16,905 nucleotides of DNA from Psychrobacter alimentarius (GTDB taxonomy: Bacteria; Pseudomonadota; Gammaproteobacteria; Pseudomonadales; Moraxellaceae): NCBI RefSeq assembly GCF_001606025.1, contig NZ_CP014946.1:1-16905 (forward strand). The letters run 5' to 3'. Position 1 is the stretch's first letter, and the number at the start of each line of letters is the position of its first letter. Position numbers and translations under genes: made by a program. Shown piece after piece: positions 3,733 to 16,905 of the stretch. The notes beneath the pieces are model-generated. The model did not search any database, was not told where the DNA came from, and was given only the letters and a program-made list of their open reading frames with translations.

Positions 3733-4896
3733 ATGCGTGCTTTAACCTACCACGGTGCTAAAGATGTGCGAGTGGACAATGTCCCAGAGCCTAAACTGCA
3801 AGAAAAAGATGATGTTATTTTACGTGTGACTGCGACTGCAATTTGTGGCTCAGATTTACACCTGTATCGTGGCAAAATGCCTGCAACCGAGGAAGGCGAT
3901 ATCTTCGGTCATGAGTTTATGGGTGTGGTTGAAGAAGTAGGCTCTGAAGTCACTGCGGTTAAAAAAGGCGATAGAGTTGTTATTCCTTTTGTTATTGCAT
4001 GTGGTAACTGCTTTTTCTGTCAGCATGACCTAATGTCCGCTTGTGAGACTACAAATACAGGCCCAGGCGCTGCTATTAATAAAAAAATAATTCCGCCACC
4101 GGCTGCTTTATTTGGTTTTAGCCATTTATATGGTGGGATTCCTGGTGGACAAGCAGAATTTGTACGGGTTCCTAAAGGTAATTTTAATCCGTTCAAAGTA
4201 AATGGCTCACTGTCAGATGAGAAGGTTTTATTTTTATCAGATATTTTACCAACTGCTTGGCAGGCCGTGACTAATGCCAATATTACTAAAGGTTCAACCG
4301 TAGCTATTTATGGTGCGGGTCCTGTGGGGTTGTTATCAGCAGCTTGTGCCAAAATGTTAGGCGCTGAGCAGATCTTCGTGGTAGATCATAATGACTACCG
4401 TTTGCAGTATGCCAAAGATACGTACGGGGCTATTCCGGTTAATTTCGATAAGGTAGATGCTGCTGAATTCATCATTGAACAGACCAAAGGACATCGCGGC
4501 GTTGACGGCGTTATTGATGCGATTGGCTTTGAAGCCAAAGGCAGTATGCTAGAAACAATAATGACCAATTTGAAAATTGAAGGGTCAAGTGGTGCAGCTT
4601 TACGTCAATGTATTGCAGCTGTGCGTCGTGGCGGGGTCGTTAGTGTTCCGGGTGTGTATGCAGGACCCATTCATGGTTTCTTATTTGGTGACGCTTTTGA
4701 TAAAGGGCTTACTTTCAAAATGGGCCAAACCCATGTACACAAGTATTTACCACAATTATTAGAGTATATTGAAAATGGTGATTTATCACCTGAAGCTATT
4801 ATTACTCACCGTATGAATTTGTCTGACGCTGCTAAAGGTTATGAAATTTTCGAAAAGCGTGAAGAAGAATGTCGTAAAGTCATTTTAACTCCTTGA
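3733..4896 (+). CDS. Zinc-dependent alcohol dehydrogenase (threonine/formaldehyde dehydrogenase-like MDR family)
   Basis: This 387-residue cytoplasmic enzyme belongs to the zinc-containing medium-chain dehydrogenases and should oxidise an alcohol or aldehyde adduct with NAD(P). The catalytic zinc site has C38 (ICGSD) and H60-E61 (GHEFMG). The structural zinc lobe has C90, C93, C96 and C104. The Rossmann glycine motif GAGPVG is at 194-199. Length and the proline-rich insert after the zinc lobe fit the group that includes glutathione-independent formaldehyde dehydrogenase, but the substrate cannot be fixed. GGAGAA precedes the ATG at good spacing. The gene stands alone, bounded upstream by transposon debris and downstream by an inverted repeat, so it looks like transferred cargo. 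All key residues are present and it is probably functional. Confidence 0.9.
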
Positions 4897-4941
4897 TTTT
4901 TCAAATTTACCCTTAACTTTTAACATTTAAGAGTTAAGTCA

Positions 4942-4992
4942 TAGCTGCTTTAACGAGATTATCTTAAATAATGATTATCGTTAAAGCAGCTA
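4942..4992. repeat. 15-bp perfect inverted repeat after the dehydrogenase gene
   Basis: Arms TAGCTGCTTTAACGA (4942-4956) and its reverse complement (4978-4992) are separated by 21 AT-rich bases. The plus strand is followed by GTAAAAAAA and not by a T-run, so it is not a typical terminator, though it could stabilise the 3' end of the mRNA. An 8-C run at 5041-5048 lies in the gene-free gap that follows. Confidence 0.6.
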
Positions 4993-5111
4993 GTAAAAAA
5001 ATCTTTAACTTGTTTTTCTCTGCACACGACAAAAAAATCACCCCCCCCCAACCGATTTTCATGGGTTTAGGGATTAAAAAACCAACTAACTGTCTTAGAT
5101 GGTCTTAAAGC

Positions 5112-5312
5112 TTAGAAGTGTAAAGCACAATAAACTTTCTCATATTTATCAGGATCATCTTTATTAGCTACAAACCCTTTGCTAACCAACGTTACCGAGT
5201 TAAATGTTTCACCTTCATCATTAGTTATCATAACAATCAAGTTTTGATCCTCAAAACTTTGGAGTTCTTTAATCAGCTCTTTAATTGTCTTAGTTCTATC
5301 TTCCCATTGCAC
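5112..5312 (-). CDS. Small hypothetical protein
   Basis: This is a 66-residue, mixed-charge cytoplasmic protein (MQWEDRTKTIKELIKELQSF at the start, then LIVMITNDEGETFNSVTLV). It has no signal peptide or membrane segment, and I do not recognise a family. The 'TIKELIKELQSFEDQNLIVMITNDEGE' pattern looks like a compact alpha/beta fold of the kind seen in small plasmid or phage proteins. The ribosome site is weak (AAGTATAG region). It diverges from the resolvase gene, and the 132-bp space between them carries several inverted repeats, so both may share control. Confidence 0.5.
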   Translation of the reverse strand: MQWEDRTKTIKELIKELQSFEDQNLIVMITNDEGETFNSVTLVSKGFVANKDDPDKYEKVYCALHF

Positions 5313-5349
5313 TATACTTAAAAAATAAAACCTCTAAACGATAACCTAT

Positions 5350-5414
5350 CTATCATTAGACTGGTCTCTGCTATTAAATGATAGTAATATCCTACTATTA
5401 TCAATGAACATTCA
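5350..5414. promoter_or_regulatory. Inverted repeats upstream of the resolvase, possible res site or operator
   Basis: CTATCATT (5350-5357) and AATGATAG (5377-5384) form an inverted pair. TGATAGTAATA and TACTATTATCA (5379-5403) form an imperfect one around TCC, and TGAACATTCA (5405-5414) is a short palindrome. Resolvase genes of the Tn3/ParA type often have recombination and control sites directly upstream. The three sub-sites of a true res site cannot be assigned here with certainty. Confidence 0.35.
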
Positions 5415-5444
5415 TTATTAAGTCTAAGTAATAGAGATGGCGTT

Positions 5445-6035
5445 ATGACGGTTCGTATTTATGTGAGAGCCAGCACTAAGGATCAAGACGCTAAGAGAGC
5501 ATTGTCTGACTTGATTAGCTTTAGCCAAAGCTATGATGATATCTATGCTGAATACATTGAGCATTTCAGTGGTACGAAGCTCGATCGACCGGTATTAGCC
5601 AAACTGCTAAAGGACGCTGAGCAAGGCGATATTCTGCTGGTTGAAAGCGTGGATAGATTAAGCAGGCTATCTCAAGATGATTTTGCAATTCTAAAGCAGC
5701 GTATCAAAGATAAGGGCTTACGATTGGTGGTGGCGGATCTACCAACCACGCATACGGTAAGTAAAGGTATGACAGGTGATATCCTAACAGTGATTAACCA
5801 TATGCTGATCGATTTGTTGGCAACGATGGCAAAGCTTGATAACGACAAGCGTAGAGAGCGCATCAAGCAGGGATTGGCTAACAGTGGCTATAAACCTACT
5901 GGTAAGAAGCCTAATACGACGAAACACAATCGTATTAAAGAATTGGCTAGTAAAAACAACATGACAAAAGAAGAGATCGCTAAGGCCGTTGGTGTTGGGG
6001 TGGCTACCGTTTATCGAGTATTAAAGCAGGGATGA
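5445..6035 (+). CDS. Serine recombinase, resolvase type
   Basis: This 196-residue site-specific recombinase probably resolves plasmid multimers or transposon cointegrates. The catalytic domain starts with IYVRASTKDQD (nucleophile S10, with R8) and has the conserved DRLSR at 70-74. A helix rich in charged residues (DNDKRRERIKQGLA) follows near 140. The C-terminal helix-turn-helix, MTKEEIAKAVGVGVATVYRVL (about 173-193), binds DNA. Length matches small resolvases of the gamma-delta type. GAGATGG upstream can serve as ribosome site for the ATG at 5445. Its own res-like repeats lie just before it. No partner transposase is present, so maintenance of the plasmid as monomers is the likeliest role. 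Confidence 0.9.
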   Translation: MTVRIYVRASTKDQDAKRALSDLISFSQSYDDIYAEYIEHFSGTKLDRPVLAKLLKDAEQGDILLVESVDRLSRLSQDDFAILKQRIKDKGLRLVVADLPTTHTVSKGMTGDILTVINHMLIDLLATMAKLDNDKRRERIKQGLANSGYKPTGKKPNTTKHNRIKELASKNNMTKEEIAKAVGVGVATVYRVLKQG

Positions 6036-6149
6036 TAGCTGAGGTATTTAACTATTTACTTGCCTTCATTATAGATATGATGCTATCAGATACATAATGG
6101 TTAAAGGGCGGTTCTAGATAAGTAAATTACAACGATTTAATTAGCTCGA

Positions 6150-6416
6150 TTAACCTAGCTGCTCAAGATATGAGAGTTTGAGATGATTATGAGCATTTTG
6201 GTAGCTCTCTGCCTCTAGGCTAGCTAATGTTTGCTCTACGTACTTATTGATGCCATCAATCATCTCATTGGCATCTTCTTGCCATTCAAAACTGTAATCT
6301 GTATCAAGAGAATCTAGATCATCAATTTTTTTTAGATTAATTAAGGCATCCATGAGTTTGCGTAGATTATTAAAGTCTAGGCTCGATATTGCGGTCTGCT
6401 TCTTAATGTTTTGCAT
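6150..6416 (-). CDS. Small acidic hypothetical protein
   Basis: The protein has 88 residues if it starts at the ATG at 6416 (MQNIKKQTAISSLDFNNL) or 93 if it starts at 6431. The later start is preferred because GGGGG lies ten bases before it, while the upstream ATG has no ribosome site. It is acidic and mainly helical (LRKLMDALINLKKIDDLDSL, then WQEDANEMIDGINKYVEQTL), without signal or membrane segments. I do not recognise the family. It is separated from the resolvase by about 110 bp and converges with it. The gene is plausible from its length and ribosome site, but only weakly supported otherwise. Confidence 0.5.
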   Translation of the reverse strand: MQNIKKQTAISSLDFNNLRKLMDALINLKKIDDLDSLDTDYSFEWQEDANEMIDGINKYVEQTLASLEAESYQNAHNHLKLSYLEQLG

Positions 6417-6444
6417 CGAGAAAACCCCCATGGCTATTAGGATC

Positions 6445-6483
6445 TTTTAAGTGGTTCCATTATAGCGGTCTATTTTAAGTGGT
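6445..6483. repeat. 11-bp direct repeat spaced 28 bp
   Basis: TTTTAAGTGGT occurs at 6445-6455 and again at 6473-6483. The pair lies just upstream of the small hypothetical gene on the minus strand, so it may belong to its promoter region or to an insertion-element edge. Confidence 0.4.
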
Positions 6484-6613
6484 CTGTTAATAGGTTTAGA
6501 GGGTGAGATAGCTGGTTCCCTTGGGGTATACCTTAATAGAACCAGTGAAAACTGATTTCTTCTATCCAAAGTCATTTCTCATAACATTTCTTATGAGAAC
6601 AATGATTCGAGAG

Positions 6614-7822
6614 TCACCAGCGCATAGGTGCTATATAAGGCAGAGCAGATTTGAGTTGCTCATAAGTACCATTTACCAGAATATCATCTGTTACTTCCTG
6701 AATATTAGTATGACCACAGAATGCCATGCTGATATCACATTCTTTATAAATGATCTCAAGCGCACGACGTACACCATCTTCGCCATAAGCACCAAGTCCG
6801 TAAAGAAACGCGCGGCCAATAAGTGTGCCTTTGGCACCCAATGAGATTGCTTTTAAGACATCTTGACCAGAGCGGATACCGCTGTCTAACCATACTTCGA
6901 TATCACTATTCTCAGCATGAACCGCTTGTATAATATCACTTAGCGCAGCAATAGAAGATGGTGCACCATCTAATTGACGCCCACCATGATTCGAAACCAC
7001 CAGTGCATCAGCCCCACTACGTGCGGCCATGATCGCATCTTCAGGCTCCATAATGCCTTTTATAATGAGCTTACCGCCCCACATATCTTTGATGCGCGCG
7101 ACATCATCCCAGCTAAGTGCAGGATCAAATTGCTCTGCCGTCCACGCTGATAAAGAAGAGATGTCTTCGACATTTTTAGCATGACCGACAATATTACCAA
7201 AAGTACGCCGTTTAGTACCCAGCATATTCATGCACCATTGCGGTTTGGTCATTAAGTTTAAAATATTGGCAAGCGTTGGTTTAGGGGGTGCAGAAAGACC
7301 ATTTTTAATGTCTTTATGACGTTGCCCTAATACTTGTAAATCGGCGGTCAAGATAAGCGCTGAACAATTGGCTTCTTTGGCACGGCGAATTAGGTTGGCT
7401 ATAAATTCCTGATCGCGCATCATATACAGCTGAAACCAAAACGGTGCACTAGTATGCGTCGCCACATCTTCAATAGAACAAATACTCATAGTCGATAGCG
7501 AAAACGGTACACCAAATTTCTCAGCCGCGCGCGCCGCATGAATCTCACCATCTGCCCACATCATACCCGTGAAGCCTGTTGGCGCGATCGCTACGGGCAT
7601 ATTGACAGGCATCCCCAGCATTTCAGTAGCAAGCGATCGTCCTTCCATATTGATCATCACACGCTGGCGCAGCTTTATACGGTCAAAGTCAGTCTCATTA
7701 TTATGATAGGTGGTCTCAGTCCATGAACCGGAGTCGACATAATCATAAAACATACGGGGTACTTTACGTTCAGCGACTTGGCGCAAGTCTTCAATATTTG
7801 TAATTTTGCTTAAATCTTTCAC
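6614..7822 (-). CDS. lldD: FMN-dependent L-lactate dehydrogenase
   Basis: This 402-residue membrane-associated flavoenzyme oxidises L-lactate to pyruvate and passes electrons to the respiratory chain. It has the full alpha-hydroxy-acid oxidase fold: MFYDYVDSGSWTE at the N-terminus, AIAPTGFTGM, FWFQLYMMRDQ, LILTADLQVLGQR, the catalytic VSNHGGRQLDG (H279, R282) and the phosphate-binding WLDSGIRSGQDVLKA followed by GAKGTLIGRAFLYGL. Length agrees with E. coli LldD (396). The start codon is GTG, with AAGGAAA nine bases upstream. It follows lldP on the same strand with 131 bp between them, so the two form an L-lactate uptake and oxidation operon. A 9-bp inverted repeat at 6576-6599 lies after the gene but lacks a T-run. 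No key residue is missing. Confidence 0.96.
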   Translation of the reverse strand: MKDLSKITNIEDLRQVAERKVPRMFYDYVDSGSWTETTYHNNETDFDRIKLRQRVMINMEGRSLATEMLGMPVNMPVAIAPTGFTGMMWADGEIHAARAAEKFGVPFSLSTMSICSIEDVATHTSAPFWFQLYMMRDQEFIANLIRRAKEANCSALILTADLQVLGQRHKDIKNGLSAPPKPTLANILNLMTKPQWCMNMLGTKRRTFGNIVGHAKNVEDISSLSAWTAEQFDPALSWDDVARIKDMWGGKLIIKGIMEPEDAIMAARSGADALVVSNHGGRQLDGAPSSIAALSDIIQAVHAENSDIEVWLDSGIRSGQDVLKAISLGAKGTLIGRAFLYGLGAYGEDGVRRALEIIYKECDISMAFCGHTNIQEVTDDILVNGTYEQLKSALPYIAPMRW

Positions 7823-7953
7823 GGGGTTTTCCTTGATAACTATTTAGTAATTGTAATGTAGTCACTGTAACTAACCATTCTGAATCTAATATAGATAATA
7901 CAATGGCGTCAGAATGATGAGTTCATAGGATTTTTTAGTGTAGCTATTAAATA

Positions 7954-9714
7954 TTAATTAATTGCCTTTTTTCTACTGGTCAGCGACATTAGTACAAAAA
8001 ATACTACTGGCCAAATGATAGCCAAAATCCACCACCAAAAATCACCAAAAATGATACCCATACCAATCAATCCAGCTTGAATGACGTAGTAAATCATGGC
8101 GAGCAAGGTTTTTCGAATGACGTAGCCTTCTTTATCTATTAACCCGACCACTGCACACGCGGCAACCACGTTATGTACTGAAATCATATTACCCGCTGCA
8201 CCGCCCACTGCTTGAAGTGCTACTACTTGTGCAGCATGGCTGCTATCAAGGCCAATTTGGCTGGCAGTTGACCACTGAAAATAAGAAAACATCATATTAC
8301 TGATGGTATTGGAACCTGCAATGAACGCACCCATTGCGCCAATCCATGGCGAGACTAGCGGCCATGCATTTTGAAACGCCCCAGCCGCACTTTCAGCCAA
8401 TAATATCGGCATGGCTGGTAGCGAAGTGGCGACATCGGCGGCTGAACCTGAATTAATAAATACTTGTACCATCGGCACCGAAAACAATAAAGCTGGCGCT
8501 GCCGCAATCATAGTTTTTGCTGAATTAATCCAACTACGTTTTACCGCTTGTCTGTTCATTTTAAACAGCAATATACACAGTAATGAAGTAATAATTAAAA
8601 TAGTACCCGGAGAATAAGCGAGTTGTATTTTACTAGAAATAGTCGTACCAAAAAGATTGGCAAGGTTAATCGTTGTGAAGTCCCCTACCAAAAAGTTTTT
8701 CAGCGGTGTCACAACCCGAGATACAATTAATAGCCCAATAACAATAATATAAGGAGAAAATGCCCTTATTAAAGTAAACTTTGGTGCTATTGAATCATCA
8801 TATTGTTCTTCGTCCAAAGTACCTAGCCAATCTTTGTCCCAGTCGTCTCGGGGTGCAAAATCGAAGATATCTTTCGGCATTAAAAATCCGCGCTTTGCCG
8901 CAGGAAGTACAATCAGTAAACCGATAAAACCGCCTACTAATGATGGAAACTCAGGACCTAGGTATTTAGCCACCAAAAAGTAGGGAATGGTAAAGCTGAG
9001 ACCGGCAAAGAGTGCAAAAGGCCACACTTTGAGCCCTTCGATAAAAGAGCGTTTTTCGCCAAAAAATCGCGTCAAAAATGCACTTAAAATTAGCGGAATT
9101 AAAAAGCCTACTAATGCATGTAACAGCCCGATATTAGCGGTAATTTGTAAGAGATAATTTTCAGCAGAGGTCGGCGCAATAGACTGAGCTAGATCTTGTT
9201 TATCACTGATACCAGACCAAACGCCAAGTAATATCGGTGTGCCAACGGCACCAAATGACACCGGCGTAGACTGGATAATCAACATGACCATAACAGAAGC
9301 CATTGCTGGGAAACCTAGCGCCAATAATAGTGGAGTACCGATAGCAGATGGCGTACCAAATCCTGATGAGCCCTCCACCAATGAGCAGAATAACCACGCC
9401 ACAATGATTGCTTGAACGCGTCTGTCAGGCGAGATATCCATAAAACCTTTACGAATGGCGATGATGGCACCACTTTCTTTTAAGGTATTGAGTAACAAGA
9501 TAGCCGCAAATACGATGAATAAAATCGTGAGCGCTACAATAATACCGTTAACAGTGGCAGCAGCGACTTGAGCGCCACTAGCATGCCAAACGAAAAAAGC
9601 TAGCAATGCCGTTGCAAGATAAGCTGCGCTCATAGATATTTTTGCCGGTAGCCGCAGGACTACAAGTAACAAGAAAACGACGAGAATAGGCGCTAAAGCC
9701 AAAAAGGTATACAT
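7954..9714 (-). CDS. lldP: L-lactate permease
   Basis: This 586-residue inner-membrane protein belongs to the LctP family and imports L-lactate, probably with protons. It has 12 or more hydrophobic segments along its length and the family signature CSLVEGSSGFGTPSAIGTPL near residues 110-129. Others typical of the family are STPVSFGAVGTPI and, near the C-terminus, GAMGAFIAGSNTISNMMFS and ALQAVGGAAGNMISVHNVVAA. The length is close to that of E. coli LldP (551) with a slightly longer loop. The ATG is preceded by AAGGATTG. It is the first gene of the lldP-lldD operon; a promoter is proposed at 9956-9983. No lldR-type regulator gene is found next to it, unlike many chromosomal operons. Confidence 0.96.
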   Translation of the reverse strand: MYTFLALAPILVVFLLLVVLRLPAKISMSAAYLATALLAFFVWHASGAQVAAATVNGIIVALTILFIVFAAILLLNTLKESGAIIAIRKGFMDISPDRRVQAIIVAWLFCSLVEGSSGFGTPSAIGTPLLLALGFPAMASVMVMLIIQSTPVSFGAVGTPILLGVWSGISDKQDLAQSIAPTSAENYLLQITANIGLLHALVGFLIPLILSAFLTRFFGEKRSFIEGLKVWPFALFAGLSFTIPYFLVAKYLGPEFPSLVGGFIGLLIVLPAAKRGFLMPKDIFDFAPRDDWDKDWLGTLDEEQYDDSIAPKFTLIRAFSPYIIVIGLLIVSRVVTPLKNFLVGDFTTINLANLFGTTISSKIQLAYSPGTILIITSLLCILLFKMNRQAVKRSWINSAKTMIAAAPALLFSVPMVQVFINSGSAADVATSLPAMPILLAESAAGAFQNAWPLVSPWIGAMGAFIAGSNTISNMMFSYFQWSTASQIGLDSSHAAQVVALQAVGGAAGNMISVHNVVAACAVVGLIDKEGYVIRKTLLAMIYYVIQAGLIGMGIIFGDFWWWILAIIWPVVFFVLMSLTSRKKAIN

Positions 9715-13790: not shown

Positions 13791-14309
13791 CTATTGCCCA
13801 CGCAAATCTGGATTATTTACACCAGTAGCATAACTATTATCATCTAGCAGCGAATCCTGTTCCCCATAATTAGCCATAGAGTCAGATTGCGTTTGGTGAC
13901 TACTGCTAGGTTGATTGCTTTCAAAACCTGTATTTTGATCAAAATCCTCTTGATTATTTTCTTTTGCGTTGGCTACAAATGGACCCTCTTCCTCACCCAA
14001 GCCCATATCGCCACCCAAACTTTCAATCATACTTTTAAACAATTCTTTATCCGATTTTCTCGTTAAAAAATCTGGAAAATGAATCGCAAAGTACTCTCGA
14101 ATCATCTGCTCACTCTCACCATCAGTTGCCAACACCTGACCTAAAAACGCACCCATTAAAATCTTCTGCTTGTTCAGGCGTTTCTCTAACTTTACTTGCT
14201 GAACCTTAGCTTGGCGTTTTAACTCTTCCAACCGTTGACGCTCTTTTAACTCATTAGAATCTTGATTATCAAAAATAGACACAGGCGCTTTATTATTAGA
14301 TACTGACAT
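13791..14309 (-). CDS. MobC/TraD-like accessory mobilisation protein
   Basis: This 172-residue protein has a charged helical N-terminal half (ELKERQRLEELKRQAKVQQV, then KLEKRLNKQKILMGAFLGQVLA at about 41-62). The second half is acidic and Gln/Ser-rich and probably disordered. The 'R..KQKILMGAFLGQ' helix followed by an 'IREYFAIHFPDFL' segment is like the small TraD/MobC accessory proteins of MOBQ plasmids, which help the relaxase at oriT. The gene diverges from mobA, with an oriT-like region in between, as in such plasmids. AAGGATAAC is well placed before the ATG. Family assignment depends mostly on context. Confidence 0.6.
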   Translation of the reverse strand: MSVSNNKAPVSIFDNQDSNELKERQRLEELKRQAKVQQVKLEKRLNKQKILMGAFLGQVLATDGESEQMIREYFAIHFPDFLTRKSDKELFKSMIESLGGDMGLGEEEGPFVANAKENNQEDFDQNTGFESNQPSSSHQTQSDSMANYGEQDSLLDDNSYATGVNNPDLRGQ

Positions 14310-14439
14310 CAGAGTTATCCTTATCGATTAAATTTCACTCAGCATAGCAAGCACCCCACTATCATTCAATCACTTGTGGTAAGCTTTAACACAACCACAT
14401 CCGAAACCTTAGATAGCTTAGTTTATTATTTAATAGTGG

Positions 14440-14570
14440 CGTCTCCCTGACTAAGGGCGAAGTAACGACTCAAAATTTAATCTATCCACTTCGTTACTAT
14501 TCTTAATTTTGAATCCTTCTTCGTTGGGGAAACCCCAAACCCCGCACACCACAAAAAGCGGTGGTGTGCA
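14440..14570. other. Candidate origin of transfer (oriT)
   Basis: Between the accessory gene and mobA lie TAAGGGCGAAGTAACGAC (14452-14469), which resembles the nic region of pTi/RSF1010-like MOBQ origins (AGGGCGCAATTATACGTC in pTi as I recall), and two perfect hairpins: TTGGGG-AAA-CCCCAA (14524-14538) and GCACACCAC / GTGGTGTGC (14544-14569, 8-nt loop). The position next to the relaxase start and the hairpins support oriT. The exact nick position is not determined. Confidence 0.55.
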
Positions 14571-14597
14571 AAAAGCAAAAATAGCAGGTGACTCTTT

Positions 14598-16763
14598 ATG
14601 ACAATGGTACACATTGCAACAAAGGCGATTTCTCGAAAAGCAGGACAGTCGGCTGTGGCGTGTGCCGCCTATCGTGCTGGCGATGTGCTTGATGATGCCA
14701 AATATGGCAAGACCCATGACTATAGTAAAAAGTCTGGGGTGATGAGCAGCGATATCGTTTTACCATTTTCATTAAAGGCGCTGGGTGTGAGTGTGGATCG
14801 GGAGACGCTTTGGAATACTGCCGAAGCGGCAGAGACACGTTCGGACAGTCGGGTGGCTCGTGAGTGGCTGATTAATTTGCCTCATGAATTGTCTGAGGAA
14901 GAGCGCCATTCACTGGCTATCAACTTTGCCCAAAAGCTTTGTGACGATATGGATGTGATTGCGGATGTGTGTATCCATCGTCCGGTGATGAAGTTGCCTT
15001 TTGATCCCAATGTACCGCCAAGCTCGAAGTATTTGCGTGAGGATGAGGAAAACCCTGATCCCCGTAATTTTCACGCGCATATTTTAGTCACTACTCGAGC
15101 GCCTACCATTGGACCAAATAAAACCTTGGCATTTGATCCAAAGCTTAAGACCCCGTTTGAGTGGTCCAATAAAAAACGTAAGGCGCATGATCTGCCGTCA
15201 TCGATGCAGGAGATTAAGCGTATTCGTGAGATGTGGGTAGATACCGCCAATAAGGTATTGGCCGAATATCATCTACCGCTGATGGATGCGCGCAGTTACA
15301 AGGATCAGGGGCTTGATCAGCAGCCCACCATTAAAATGGGGGTAGAGGCGACAGCAATGGAGCGCCGAGGCATCACGACCGAAAAAGGTAATACCAACCG
15401 CGCCATCAAAGCACGTAATAACTTGGTGGCTGACAACCATATCAAACAGGAGGCAGACAATGAGCGACGAATTAGCGCACTTAGAAAAGGACTTGCTTGG
15501 GCAACTGAGAAAAATGCAAGACTACCTGGCAGCATTGGAGGCACAAAACAACGAGCTGACTTTGCAAAACACCTCTCTGGAAGCTCAGAATACTACATTA
15601 CATACTGCACAAAACAATCTCATAGAACGGCAATTCGAGTTGACGACACAAAACGATGCGTTGAAGAGGCAAAATCAGGCATTGCTTGGGCAGCTAAACA
15701 GTGCGAAGACCTACCAAAGCGATGTGATGACACAAAACAAAGAATTAATGACACAAAACAAGAAAACAATAAGCTCACACAACGAATTGACGACACAAAA
15801 CAAGCAATTGAGGGAATCACTGAAGCTATCGGAAAGTCAAATATTGAAATTAACAAAGCAACTGAGCGAAGTGCAAGACCAGCCCCTAGTCCCTTCGATG
15901 ACGACGCACGACGAGCAAGAGCTGCTCGACTTGATCGACAAGAAGGACGCATTGATCGAGACACTCGAGCAAACCGTTTTGAAGATGAGAGAATCTTTGA
16001 GTATGCTGAACGTATGAAGCTGCACCTAGCGATGCGCTTGATACAACGTCATCGTGAGGCGATGGCCATCAACTGGGCGCAAGGAGAAACCGCGGCTGAC
16101 GCCCCTGATAAATTTGATCAGCGTCAAGTGGCACTACTTAGCGAGTTTGCACAGCGCCATGGTATTGAGGACCACGATAAAGCCGTGGAATTTACCGCGC
16201 ACTTACGCCAAGTGGCCAAACGTTTTGATTACACGCTGGTTGAAAACAACAAAGCCATCATCAAGCTGTTGCGTGATCCTAACGCTGAACGTGAGCAGTA
16301 TCTAGCGCTTACCAAGCATTTTACAGATTTCAGAGACAATATCGATCAAAAACGAGCGGCATTTAATACCAGCATCATCGACAAGCTAGGCGGTAGCGCA
16401 GGAGAGGTTGGCAGAATGACTCGGGACATCATCTCATCGTCTAGCTACATAGAAGGGTTAAACCATTACATCAATAATGATAGTCATTCAGTTGAGGCAA
16501 GAGACGTTGCCAAAGAATATTTAGCAGATACCTTGGATAAAACCTGTCAGCAATTCAAACTTGCGTTGCGTGATGTTAACTCTTTACCACCAACCCAGCG
16601 TAAAACCTACTCAGAGGCGCTTAAAGCCACTTTAGAGACGTTTACTGAGCAATATGGCAAAGAGCTGTCTGAAAGCCAACACAAAGCCCTACAGGGCGGT
16701 TTAGAGTCGTACAAACATCAGGTTAATAAAACTCATTCACCTAGCCGAGGATTTAGTCTTTAA
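14598..16763 (+). CDS. mobA: MobA/MobL family relaxase (MOBQ)
   Basis: This 721-residue enzyme should nick oriT and stay bound to the 5' end during transfer. The N-terminal relaxase domain (about 1-215) has catalytic Tyr25 in ACAAYRAGD and the metal-binding NFHAHILVTTR with H159 and H161. DSRVAREWLINLPHEL and WVDTANKVLAEYHLPLMDARSY also fit MobA/MobL. Residues about 290-470 are low-complexity coiled coil with repeated [D/C/G]TKQ, and there a second gene is encoded in another frame. The C-terminal part (from about M473, MKLHLAMRLIQRHREAMAIN) is helical and has no recognisable primase. Length is like RSF1010 MobA (709). AGGTGA precedes the ATG. An ATG at 16014 in this frame overlaps the nested gene's stop, so a shorter C-terminal product is possible. 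Confidence 0.93.
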   Translation: MTMVHIATKAISRKAGQSAVACAAYRAGDVLDDAKYGKTHDYSKKSGVMSSDIVLPFSLKALGVSVDRETLWNTAEAAETRSDSRVAREWLINLPHELSEEERHSLAINFAQKLCDDMDVIADVCIHRPVMKLPFDPNVPPSSKYLREDEENPDPRNFHAHILVTTRAPTIGPNKTLAFDPKLKTPFEWSNKKRKAHDLPSSMQEIKRIREMWVDTANKVLAEYHLPLMDARSYKDQGLDQQPTIKMGVEATAMERRGITTEKGNTNRAIKARNNLVADNHIKQEADNERRISALRKGLAWATEKNARLPGSIGGTKQRADFAKHLSGSSEYYITYCTKQSHRTAIRVDDTKRCVEEAKSGIAWAAKQCEDLPKRCDDTKQRINDTKQENNKLTQRIDDTKQAIEGITEAIGKSNIEINKATERSARPAPSPFDDDARRARAARLDRQEGRIDRDTRANRFEDERIFEYAERMKLHLAMRLIQRHREAMAINWAQGETAADAPDKFDQRQVALLSEFAQRHGIEDHDKAVEFTAHLRQVAKRFDYTLVENNKAIIKLLRDPNAEREQYLALTKHFTDFRDNIDQKRAAFNTSIIDKLGGSAGEVGRMTRDIISSSSYIEGLNHYINNDSHSVEARDVAKEYLADTLDKTCQQFKLALRDVNSLPPTQRKTYSEALKATLETFTEQYGKELSESQHKALQGGLESYKHQVNKTHSPSRGFSL
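15460..16017 (+). CDS. Coiled-coil protein nested in mobA (MobB-like)
   Basis: A 185-residue reading frame lies entirely inside mobA, in a different frame of the same strand. A perfect AGGAGG (15448-15453) stands six bases before its ATG, the best ribosome site in the window. The product starts MSDELAHLEKDLLGQLRKMQ and is almost all coiled coil, with many Gln/Asn-rich repeats (TQNDALKRQN, MTQNKELMTQNKK, LTTQNKQLRESL), then an acidic end (LLDLIDKKDALIETLEQTVL). RSF1010 also has mobB wholly inside mobA, and its MobB helps the relaxase complex. A similar job is likely here, but I see no sequence similarity to judge it. The stop TGA overlaps an ATG of mobA (ATGA, 16014-16017). Confidence 0.75.
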   Translation: MSDELAHLEKDLLGQLRKMQDYLAALEAQNNELTLQNTSLEAQNTTLHTAQNNLIERQFELTTQNDALKRQNQALLGQLNSAKTYQSDVMTQNKELMTQNKKTISSHNELTTQNKQLRESLKLSESQILKLTKQLSEVQDQPLVPSMTTHDEQELLDLIDKKDALIETLEQTVLKMRESLSMLNV

Positions 16764-16839
16764 TCTACTCCTCAAAAGAACCGTTACTAAGGAATAAATT
16801 GCTTAGACAAGCTACGTGGTTTAAATGATGATTTTTCAC

Positions 16840-16848
16840 TTATCCACA
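16840..16848 (+). other. Consensus DnaA box of oriV
   Basis: TTATCCACA matches the E. coli DnaA consensus exactly. It is followed by an A/T-rich run and then by 10-bp direct repeats that continue into the start of the window. With the iterons about 120 bp further on around the circle, this makes a full iteron-type origin. Confidence 0.75.
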
Positions 16849-16882
16849 AAAAAATTTATCACCCGTTTCTTTAAGGGTTTTT

Positions 16883-16905
16883 ATTTGATCCTGTTTACTC
16901 CTGTT
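16883..16905 (+). repeat. Short direct repeats continuing across the window ends
   Basis: The end of the window reads CCTGTTTACTCCTGTT and its first bases read TACTCCTGTTTA. Joined as a circle they give three tandem copies of CCTGTTTA at 10-bp spacing (ACTCCTGTTT unit). They lie between the DnaA box and the iterons, where iteron plasmids often have an opening region. The continuity supports the window being a whole circular plasmid. Confidence 0.6.

Follow-up and report, generated by a model that had tools for sequence, protein, structure and literature searches.

The window analysed here is a 16,905-bp stretch of Psychrobacter alimentarius DNA, one whole contig of the two in its assembly. 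It carries a gene for a MOBQ relaxase of the MobA/MobL type, and within that gene lies a second open reading frame (ORF) of 185 codons. The nested ORF is read in the +1 frame from an ATG at 15460 to a TGA at 16015-16017, entirely inside the relaxase ORF (relaxase codons 288-472), between the catalytic domain and the C-terminal module. An initial annotation of this DNA had described the ORF together with an AGGAGG Shine-Dalgarno (SD) sequence 6 nucleotides (nt) ahead of its ATG, and we confirm both its coordinates and its frame. Comparison with related sequences indicates that this is a genuine gene nested in the relaxase gene, under selection and usually unannotated.

Evidence for the nested gene beyond chance is modest from one sequence and strong from comparison. 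Among the 21 genes of the closest clade, synonymous changes in the relaxase frame occur at 0.41 of expectation in the overlap, against 1.20 before it and 1.15 after it. The lowest observed/expected ratio in 167 windows of 185 codons outside the overlap is 1.03, while over relaxase codons 421-450 the ratio is 0.13. Host synonymous change is suppressed over the nested ORF only, the behaviour by which an overlapping coding gene is recognised. A comparison of synonymous sites had been proposed as a check in the initial annotation, and its outcome speaks for the gene.

Each substitution was also classed by what it does in either frame, and the ratio dSN/dNS sets changes that alter only the nested protein against those that alter only the relaxase, with the +2 frame as a control. 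In the closest clade this ratio is 0.69 (0.47-0.99) in the overlap, compared with 7.3 and 2.4 in the flanks. Five further clades give 0.37, 0.82, 0.71, 0.55 and 0.56 in the overlap, compared with 1.67-12.7 in the flanks. Nested-only changes are rarer than relaxase-only changes in the overlap in all six clades, and the reverse holds in the flanks. The relaxase dNN/dSN ratio is 0.64 in the overlap versus 0.08 and 0.24 in the flanks. Across 22 divergent representatives, identity of the nested proteins is at least that of the relaxase sequences encoded by the shared DNA in 197 of 231 pairs, and strictly higher in 182. These comparisons indicate that, in the overlap, the nested frame is more constrained than the relaxase frame, and that purifying selection acts on the nested protein sequence. 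The count of stop codons in the overlap (0 in 5740 codons) was not used as evidence, the region having been chosen as an open stretch.

The frame itself is kept across relatives. We assembled 50 distinct relaxase coding sequences, 41 of them full-length with the window included; the other nine are contig ends, C-terminal remnants, broken copies (L019, L060) and a short Moraxella relaxase (L069). At the corresponding place the +1 frame is open in 41/41 full-length genes, over 148-268 codons and at relaxase identities down to 30%. Members L002-L031 were recruited with the nested protein itself and form a biased subset of relatives. A recount restricted to recruitment by the relaxase, and to distinct genes whose alignment with the window relaxase runs from its start past residue 600, finds the nested stretch in 14/14 genes from genome contigs, 15/15 from plasmid records and 19/19 from whole genomes, the three sets sharing members. 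Stops or frame loss in homologues, which the initial annotation had named as a way to test the gene, are confined to broken or recombinant copies: L060 and three frame fusions (P0029, P0037, P0041). In L019, the relaxase frame is broken near codon 277 and the nested frame is still open. Plasmid pPSYFG1 exists in two record versions, an older one (L060) in which the relaxase is split over several frames and a newer one (L059) in which it is intact; in the older record, an annotated hypothetical protein starts at the nested start.

The start signals are retained as well. An ATG with an SD match of at least 4 nt stands at the corresponding position in 37 of the 41 full-length relatives, window included, with the variants AGGAGG, AAGGAG, TAAGGAG, AAGG and AGGA. 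The sequence points to translation from this internal start on the mobA message. At the other end, the nested stop overlaps a relaxase-frame ATG as ATGA in 21/21 closest-clade members, an overlap absent from the other 22 relatives listed. The relaxase C-terminal module might be made separately by reinitiation at 16014, as is RepB' in RSF1010. A search for an internal promoter gave three promoter-like sites in 14300-16905, where shuffling predicts 4.4, and none upstream of 15460 on the + strand. The coordinates of these and neighbouring features are collected in Table 1.

Table 1. Features of the mobilization region in the 16,905-bp window
Feature	Position	Strand	Basis
Nested gene, +1 frame, 185 amino acids (aa), coiled-coil protein (proposed mobilization helper)	15460..16017	+	Conserved frame, suppressed synonymous change, dSN/dNS
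Shine-Dalgarno AGGAGG of nested gene, 6 nt to ATG	15448..15453	+	Sequence; SD match kept among relatives
Nested residues 2-139: predicted long heptad-repeat helix (Leu d, Asn a)	15463..15876	+	Periodicity, AlphaFold2
Nested residues 140-148: predicted break between helices	15877..15903	+	Alignments, dip in pLDDT at 144-147
Nested residues 149-184: predicted C-terminal helix	15904..16011	+	AlphaFold2
MOBQ relaxase gene (MobA/MobL), 721 aa: catalytic domain, linker (overlap), C-terminal module	14598..16763	+	PF03389, invariant catalytic residues, PLSDB typing of relatives
Relaxase catalytic domain, codons 1-287	14598..15458	+	PF03389; profile matches to 4ht4 and R1162 MobA 2ns6
Relaxase-frame ATG (M473), overlaps nested stop as ATGA	16014..16016	+	Kept in closest clade
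C-terminal module of relaxase	16014..16763	+	Residues 440-721 match 287 database proteins
Putative oriT region, inverted repeats	14450..14555	+	Strong conservation across alignment of 7 intergenic regions
Divergent 172-aa gene, in place of pP60P2 mobC	13791..14309	-	Position; partial description in PMC3632715
Rep3-type initiator gene	within window		Pfam search

The host gene is identified by its catalytic domain. PF03389 matches residues 17-257 (E=3.6e-51; 174.5 bits against a cut-off of 26.7), and Y25, H127, H159 and H161 are invariant in 22/22 aligned relaxases, which places the protein in MobA/MobL; these residues were set against the catalytic motif given in part of a published description (PMC6856555). 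PLSDB types the closest plasmid relatives as MOBQ, and lists several remoter ones as non-mobilizable, with no MOB type. The NCBIfam MobQ equivalog NF041496 stays below its cut-off for the window relaxase (167.8 bits versus 200). Against solved structures, the relaxase profile matches over the catalytic domain only, besides coiled coils and one weak match in the C part (E 0.83); one of these structures, 4ht4, is a solved nicking enzyme. For the C-terminal module no Pfam or NCBIfam family scored above cut-off, and the divergent 172-aa gene has a match of its own in neither Pfam nor NCBIfam. The genes at 3733-9714 are presumably cargo, their translations resembling an alcohol dehydrogenase, a flavin mononucleotide (FMN) lactate dehydrogenase and a lactate permease. 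The origin of transfer (oriT) of plasmid pP60P2 is assigned, in the part of its description used here, to the corresponding mob intergenic interval (PMC3632715).

As to spread, 30 of 100 sampled Psychrobacter genomes contain a match, the source genome included; one of these matches is weak with five stops (G065) and another is cut by a contig end (G023). At E<=1e-5, 11 of 72,556 plasmid records match, all from Psychrobacter, a threshold that misses remoter members (L063-L067). A profile search of 299 genomes of the family gave no credible match outside the genus: out-of-genus matches in four of these genomes (E 7e-9 to 3e-7, in frames of 712-1244 aa) were read as generic coiled coils, as were further in-genus matches with E about 1e-7 in 99-149-aa frames. 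The nested frame also occurs on one contig, L045, which is assigned to Shewanella electrodiphila and whose relaxase is an 85% relative of the Psychrobacter one; this reflects either transfer between orders or contamination. A protein-database search returned 42 proteins from 8000 scored candidates, most on short contigs, and some of the hits carry the label Pfam PF27954. Eleven of the 42 were inspected, among which seven are family-like, three are the frame fusions named above and no free-standing relative of the nested protein was recognised; P0042 was set aside as an unrelated protein with a caspase-type domain. Some members lie on large contigs (L047/L024, L025 and L027, on 3.2 Mb, 0.25 Mb and 0.93 Mb), and some modules may be integrated in chromosomes.

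The modular build of the host is seen in comparisons of its two ends. Identities of the N-terminal domain and C-terminal module diverge sharply between pairs: 90/31% for L061 and the window, 87/41 for L030 and L020, 49/87 for L030 and L027, and 36/84 for L029 and L066. This pattern indicates that lineages have swapped N domains and C modules, and in the swapped combinations the nested gene lies where the two meet. A strict association of the nested gene with the C-terminal module was considered and dropped: five Psychrobacter relaxases (L099-L103, 521-576 aa) lack the nested frame, yet the second half of the module finds a partial, weak match in them (E 3e-12 to 2e-3). By extrapolation from these weak matches, about 7-46 residues separate their catalytic domain from the C module, compared with about 200 in the window. 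As far as such weak matches go, the nested gene looks as if it accompanies the long linker, which would be a block that one kind of relaxase has and the other lacks.

The initial annotation had called the product a Gln/Asn-rich coiled coil, and composition, heptad periodicity and predicted helices all agree. The protein contains 18.4% L, 11.9% Q and 7.6% N, with significant 3.5- and 7-residue periodicity. Between residues 34 and 140, 10 of 17 Leu occupy one heptad position, and 7 of 11 Asn lie four residues later, placing Leu at d and Asn at a. Asn at position a favours parallel dimers. AlphaFold2 predicts helices at residues 2-139 and 149-184, with a mean predicted local distance difference test (pLDDT) score of 90.3 and a predicted template modelling (pTM) score of 0.44; the model is of a single chain, and AlphaFold2 is inclined to draw such sequences as single helices, which counts against taking it at face value. 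Family members mostly start with MSD...LLGQL or similar, continue in heptads such as ELTTQND/ALKRQNQ, and share a break motif around P-x-M-T-T-H-D-E before the second helix. The conserved relaxase-frame PAPSPFDD falls at or near this helix break, so that both frames are conserved there. No membrane segment was found in 22/22 nested proteins (maximum KD19 at most 0.73, and 0.32 for the window), and no DNA-binding family matched the window protein above cut-off. Together, sequence and model suggest that the protein is a soluble rod: about 139 residues would form a parallel coiled-coil dimer with Asn at a and Leu at d, followed by the conserved break and a short second helix.

Among close relatives the overlap changes length mainly in steps of seven residues. 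We aligned 117 proteins of at least 660 aa, taken from the best 120 of the 287 C-part matches, together with the window (118 rows). Between chosen anchors, every row has 281 residues in the N part and 235 in the C part. The overlap measures 190, 183, 176, 169, 148 or 127 residues in 89 rows, each value being 190 minus a multiple of seven. It measures 186 in the other 29, which form a second subtype with -7 and +3. The alignment covers the closest relatives, and the rule is not strict between remoter subtypes. A family-wide heptad count was discarded, the cutting pattern having shortened members (L026 to 5 residues, the window to 60). Tandem Repeats Finder at score 30 detected no DNA tandem repeats behind these steps; DNA self-similarity is raised at lags of 21 and 63 (0.41). 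The steps could come from selection for coiled-coil register, from recombination between diverged 21-bp units, or from both.

Nested mobilization genes in relaxase genes are a known arrangement, and the gene described here is a variant of it. The likeness to RSF1010 put forward in the initial annotation holds up: as in the IncQ plasmids RSF1010 and R1162, the host is a MOBQ relaxase with a C-terminal module after its relaxase domain, and the nested gene begins past that domain in the +1 frame, at relaxase codon 288 here and 250 for the IncQ mobB of p60136; the N-terminal part is hydrophilic in both proteins. MobB of IncQ plasmids is a membrane protein. In contrast, the nested protein lacks the membrane segment found in the C-terminal half of MobB (maximum KD19 0.32 versus 2.38), is longer (185 versus 137 aa), and aligns with it at an hhalign probability of 0.4% over 14 columns, so that homology is not indicated. 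The host proteins differ too, their profile alignment stopping at column 277 and leaving the C-terminal module unmatched to the IncQ primase part.

The ColE-type genes MobB/MobD (MbeB/MbeD of ColE1) are likewise nested inside a relaxase gene behind its N-terminal part. There, however, two genes are nested, and the host is a MOBP-HEN relaxase rather than MobA/MobL. The MbeB and MbeD families are not among the seven matches of the window protein at E<=1, and no family of this type is among the first 25 of 133 families matched by the 22 nested members. Acinetobacter lwoffii pAL_065-10 and Moraxella osloensis pNP7-7 combine a related relaxase domain with a gene for a long hydrophilic stretch, but this second gene follows the relaxase, has a membrane segment and shows no profile match to the nested protein. 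Behind short MOBQ relaxases of Acinetobacter and Moraxella, a gene with a hydrophilic stretch and a membrane segment (L072:1504-1974 and L069:2491-3183) overlaps the relaxase stop by 4 bases, in a MobB-like but non-nested layout. Three described Psychrobacter plasmids, pP60P2 (L056), pA3H9 (L068) and pA3H11 (L053), share both the relaxase type and the nested frame. In the portions of the reports used here, the pP60P2 mob module is described as mobA plus mobC (PMC3632715), pA3H9 and pA3H11 are described by their relaxases (PMC10457243), and the nested ORF is not mentioned in either. A search of one paper library, judged by titles and abstract openings, found no recognisable report of the nested gene.

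We propose, with moderate confidence and by analogy, that the product is a MobB-like mobilization helper. The nested protein would be made from the same message as the relaxase and would act as a mobilization accessory, working like RSF1010 MobB or ColE-type MobB/MobD. It may bind the relaxase through the linker or the C-terminal module, and may aid relaxosome assembly on oriT or docking on the type IV secretion system of a helper plasmid. In the overlap, the relaxase is proposed to act mainly as a helical spacer that separates the catalytic domain from the C-terminal module and tolerates change, and because of this tolerance the DNA can serve both frames. The helper role is favoured because the gene sits on mobA beside a conserved oriT-like region. 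It is favoured, further, because the carrier modules of pA3H11 and pA3H9 are mobilised by pRK2013 functions, according to the consulted part of the report (PMC10457243). Finally, the nested genes of other relaxases are mobilization genes, as partial accounts state for mobB within the RSF1010 relaxase gene (PMC2200642) and for the internal MobB/MobD of ColE-type plasmids behind the conserved N-terminal third (PMC9282650).

Several results pull the other way on whether the open frame is a gene at all, and these have to be set against the comparative evidence. For three of the six clades (C, E and F) the dSN/dNS confidence interval takes in 1, and clades C, D and F are single pairs. The +2 control in the overlap lies at 0.82-1.42, and the drop specific to the nested frame is only about 1.1- to 2.2-fold (nested/+2 control per clade: 0.69/1.00, 0.37/0.82, 0.82/0.94, 0.71/1.42, 0.55/0.90 and 0.56/0.94); by this control, much of the overlap-flank contrast in dSN/dNS arises because the relaxase linker is tolerant of change. 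The ratio dNN/dNS alone is weak in the closest clade, at 0.44 in the overlap versus 0.58 and 0.57 in the flanks, and it serves here as minor support, the flanks being similar at 0.57-0.58. In four of the 41 full-length relatives (L026, L020, L068 and L030) the corresponding place shows no convincing SD/ATG, and one of them, L068, is the mobilisable module of pA3H9. The initial annotation had also argued from more than 550 bases being open in both frames, an argument that proves weak. Over the whole relaxase gene, a +1 open stretch this long has P=0.001 by codon permutation and 0.014 by synonymous shuffle, but from the overlap codons only, P is 0.097 and 0.18. In 4 of the 16 sequences tested, a set that includes the window, P=1, as the shuffled codons never yield a +1 stop. 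With the overlap codons alone an open +1 frame is not rare, and length cannot carry the case. An artefact of heptad-rich linker codons that rarely yield +1 stops would account for this openness, and yet we regard it as most improbable, given that the suppression of silent relaxase changes is strong and coincides with the ORF, that nested-only changes are the rarer kind in all six clades, and that the nested frame keeps its protein motifs, start and SD. Programmed frameshifting from the relaxase frame, yielding a relaxase-coiled-coil fusion with no internal start, appears very unlikely as well. In the closest clade the +1 frame is indeed open for 38-59 codons upstream of the ATG, and genetic fusions of relaxase and nested frame exist in databases (P0029, P0037). 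These fusions, however, look like between-repeat deletions in single sequences, and SD and ATG are conserved. In other clades an upstream stop stands only 1-5 codons from the conserved ATG (L025, L027, L016, L018, L021 and L057-L059), so that a shift would have next to no room; in L025 and L027 a single codon intervenes, which favours internal initiation and disfavours frameshifting.

What the product does is a separate matter, and here too some findings weigh on the helper proposal. No homology of the nested protein to a known mobilization protein was found by Pfam, NCBIfam or profile comparison. The AlphaFold2 model of the whole relaxase, at a mean pLDDT of 47.7 and pTM of 0.30, is too poor to use. 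The nested stretch is absent from 14/14 untruncated MOBQ relaxases of other layout (L069, L070, L072-L076 and L099-L105, from Acinetobacter, Moraxella, Pseudomonas, E. coli and other Psychrobacter plasmids), which end in a stop codon and align by BLAST only N-terminally to the window relaxase; L106, L094 and L028, which run to a contig end, and L071, an IncQ reference with its own mobB, were left out of this count. A nested helper is therefore not a general need of such relaxases, and the failure of a strict link to the C-terminal module slightly lowers our confidence in the role. A translated protein of exclusion or regulation, for instance an entry-exclusion factor, or a coiled-coil partner by which the donor's relaxase is titrated or timed, is possible though doubtful. 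The tie to one relaxase layout, with long linker and C-terminal module, would suit a relaxase partner that could be inhibitory, and homology to helper proteins is absent; on the other hand, no feature pointing to such a function was found, the window protein matching no DNA-binding family above cut-off and having no membrane segment. Compatible with the helper role, but unlikely, is descent of the nested protein from a common MOBQ ancestor as a highly diverged homologue of RSF1010 MobB. The shared +1 frame, the same place behind the relaxase domain and the hydrophilic N-terminal parts would fit such descent, while the lack of a profile match (0.4%), the missing membrane segment (maximum KD19 at most 0.73 in 22/22, versus 2.38) and the absence of the nested frame from the 14 other MOBQ relaxases argue against it. 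An independent origin from RSF1010 mobB is likely on this sequence evidence. The independent invention suggested in the initial annotation fits the missing homology and membrane segment, but coiled coils that evolve fast may lose recognisable homology.

We also raise, speculatively and as a rather improbable whole, an extension of the helper proposal in which two heptad helices encoded by one DNA in two frames pair with each other. The nested rod would bind the relaxase linker, seven-codon steps would keep both registers, and the linker would be a cassette between swapping modules, carried by some Psychrobacter relaxases and absent as a whole from others, in which the RSF1010-type nested helper was re-created independently with a new protein.

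Nested genes are seldom called by annotation. This one is unlisted despite matches in 30 of 100 Psychrobacter genomes; in the plasmid records examined, whose PLSDB tables are incomplete, no gene is listed inside an intact relaxase gene. The gene also illustrates that a nested frame can bear more of the constraint than its host, and that dual coding is tolerated in a coiled coil whose length changes mainly in heptad steps. If the product is a mobilization helper, nested helpers would have evolved several times, at least twice in MOBQ and also in MOBP, and the relaxase linker would be a nursery for such genes.

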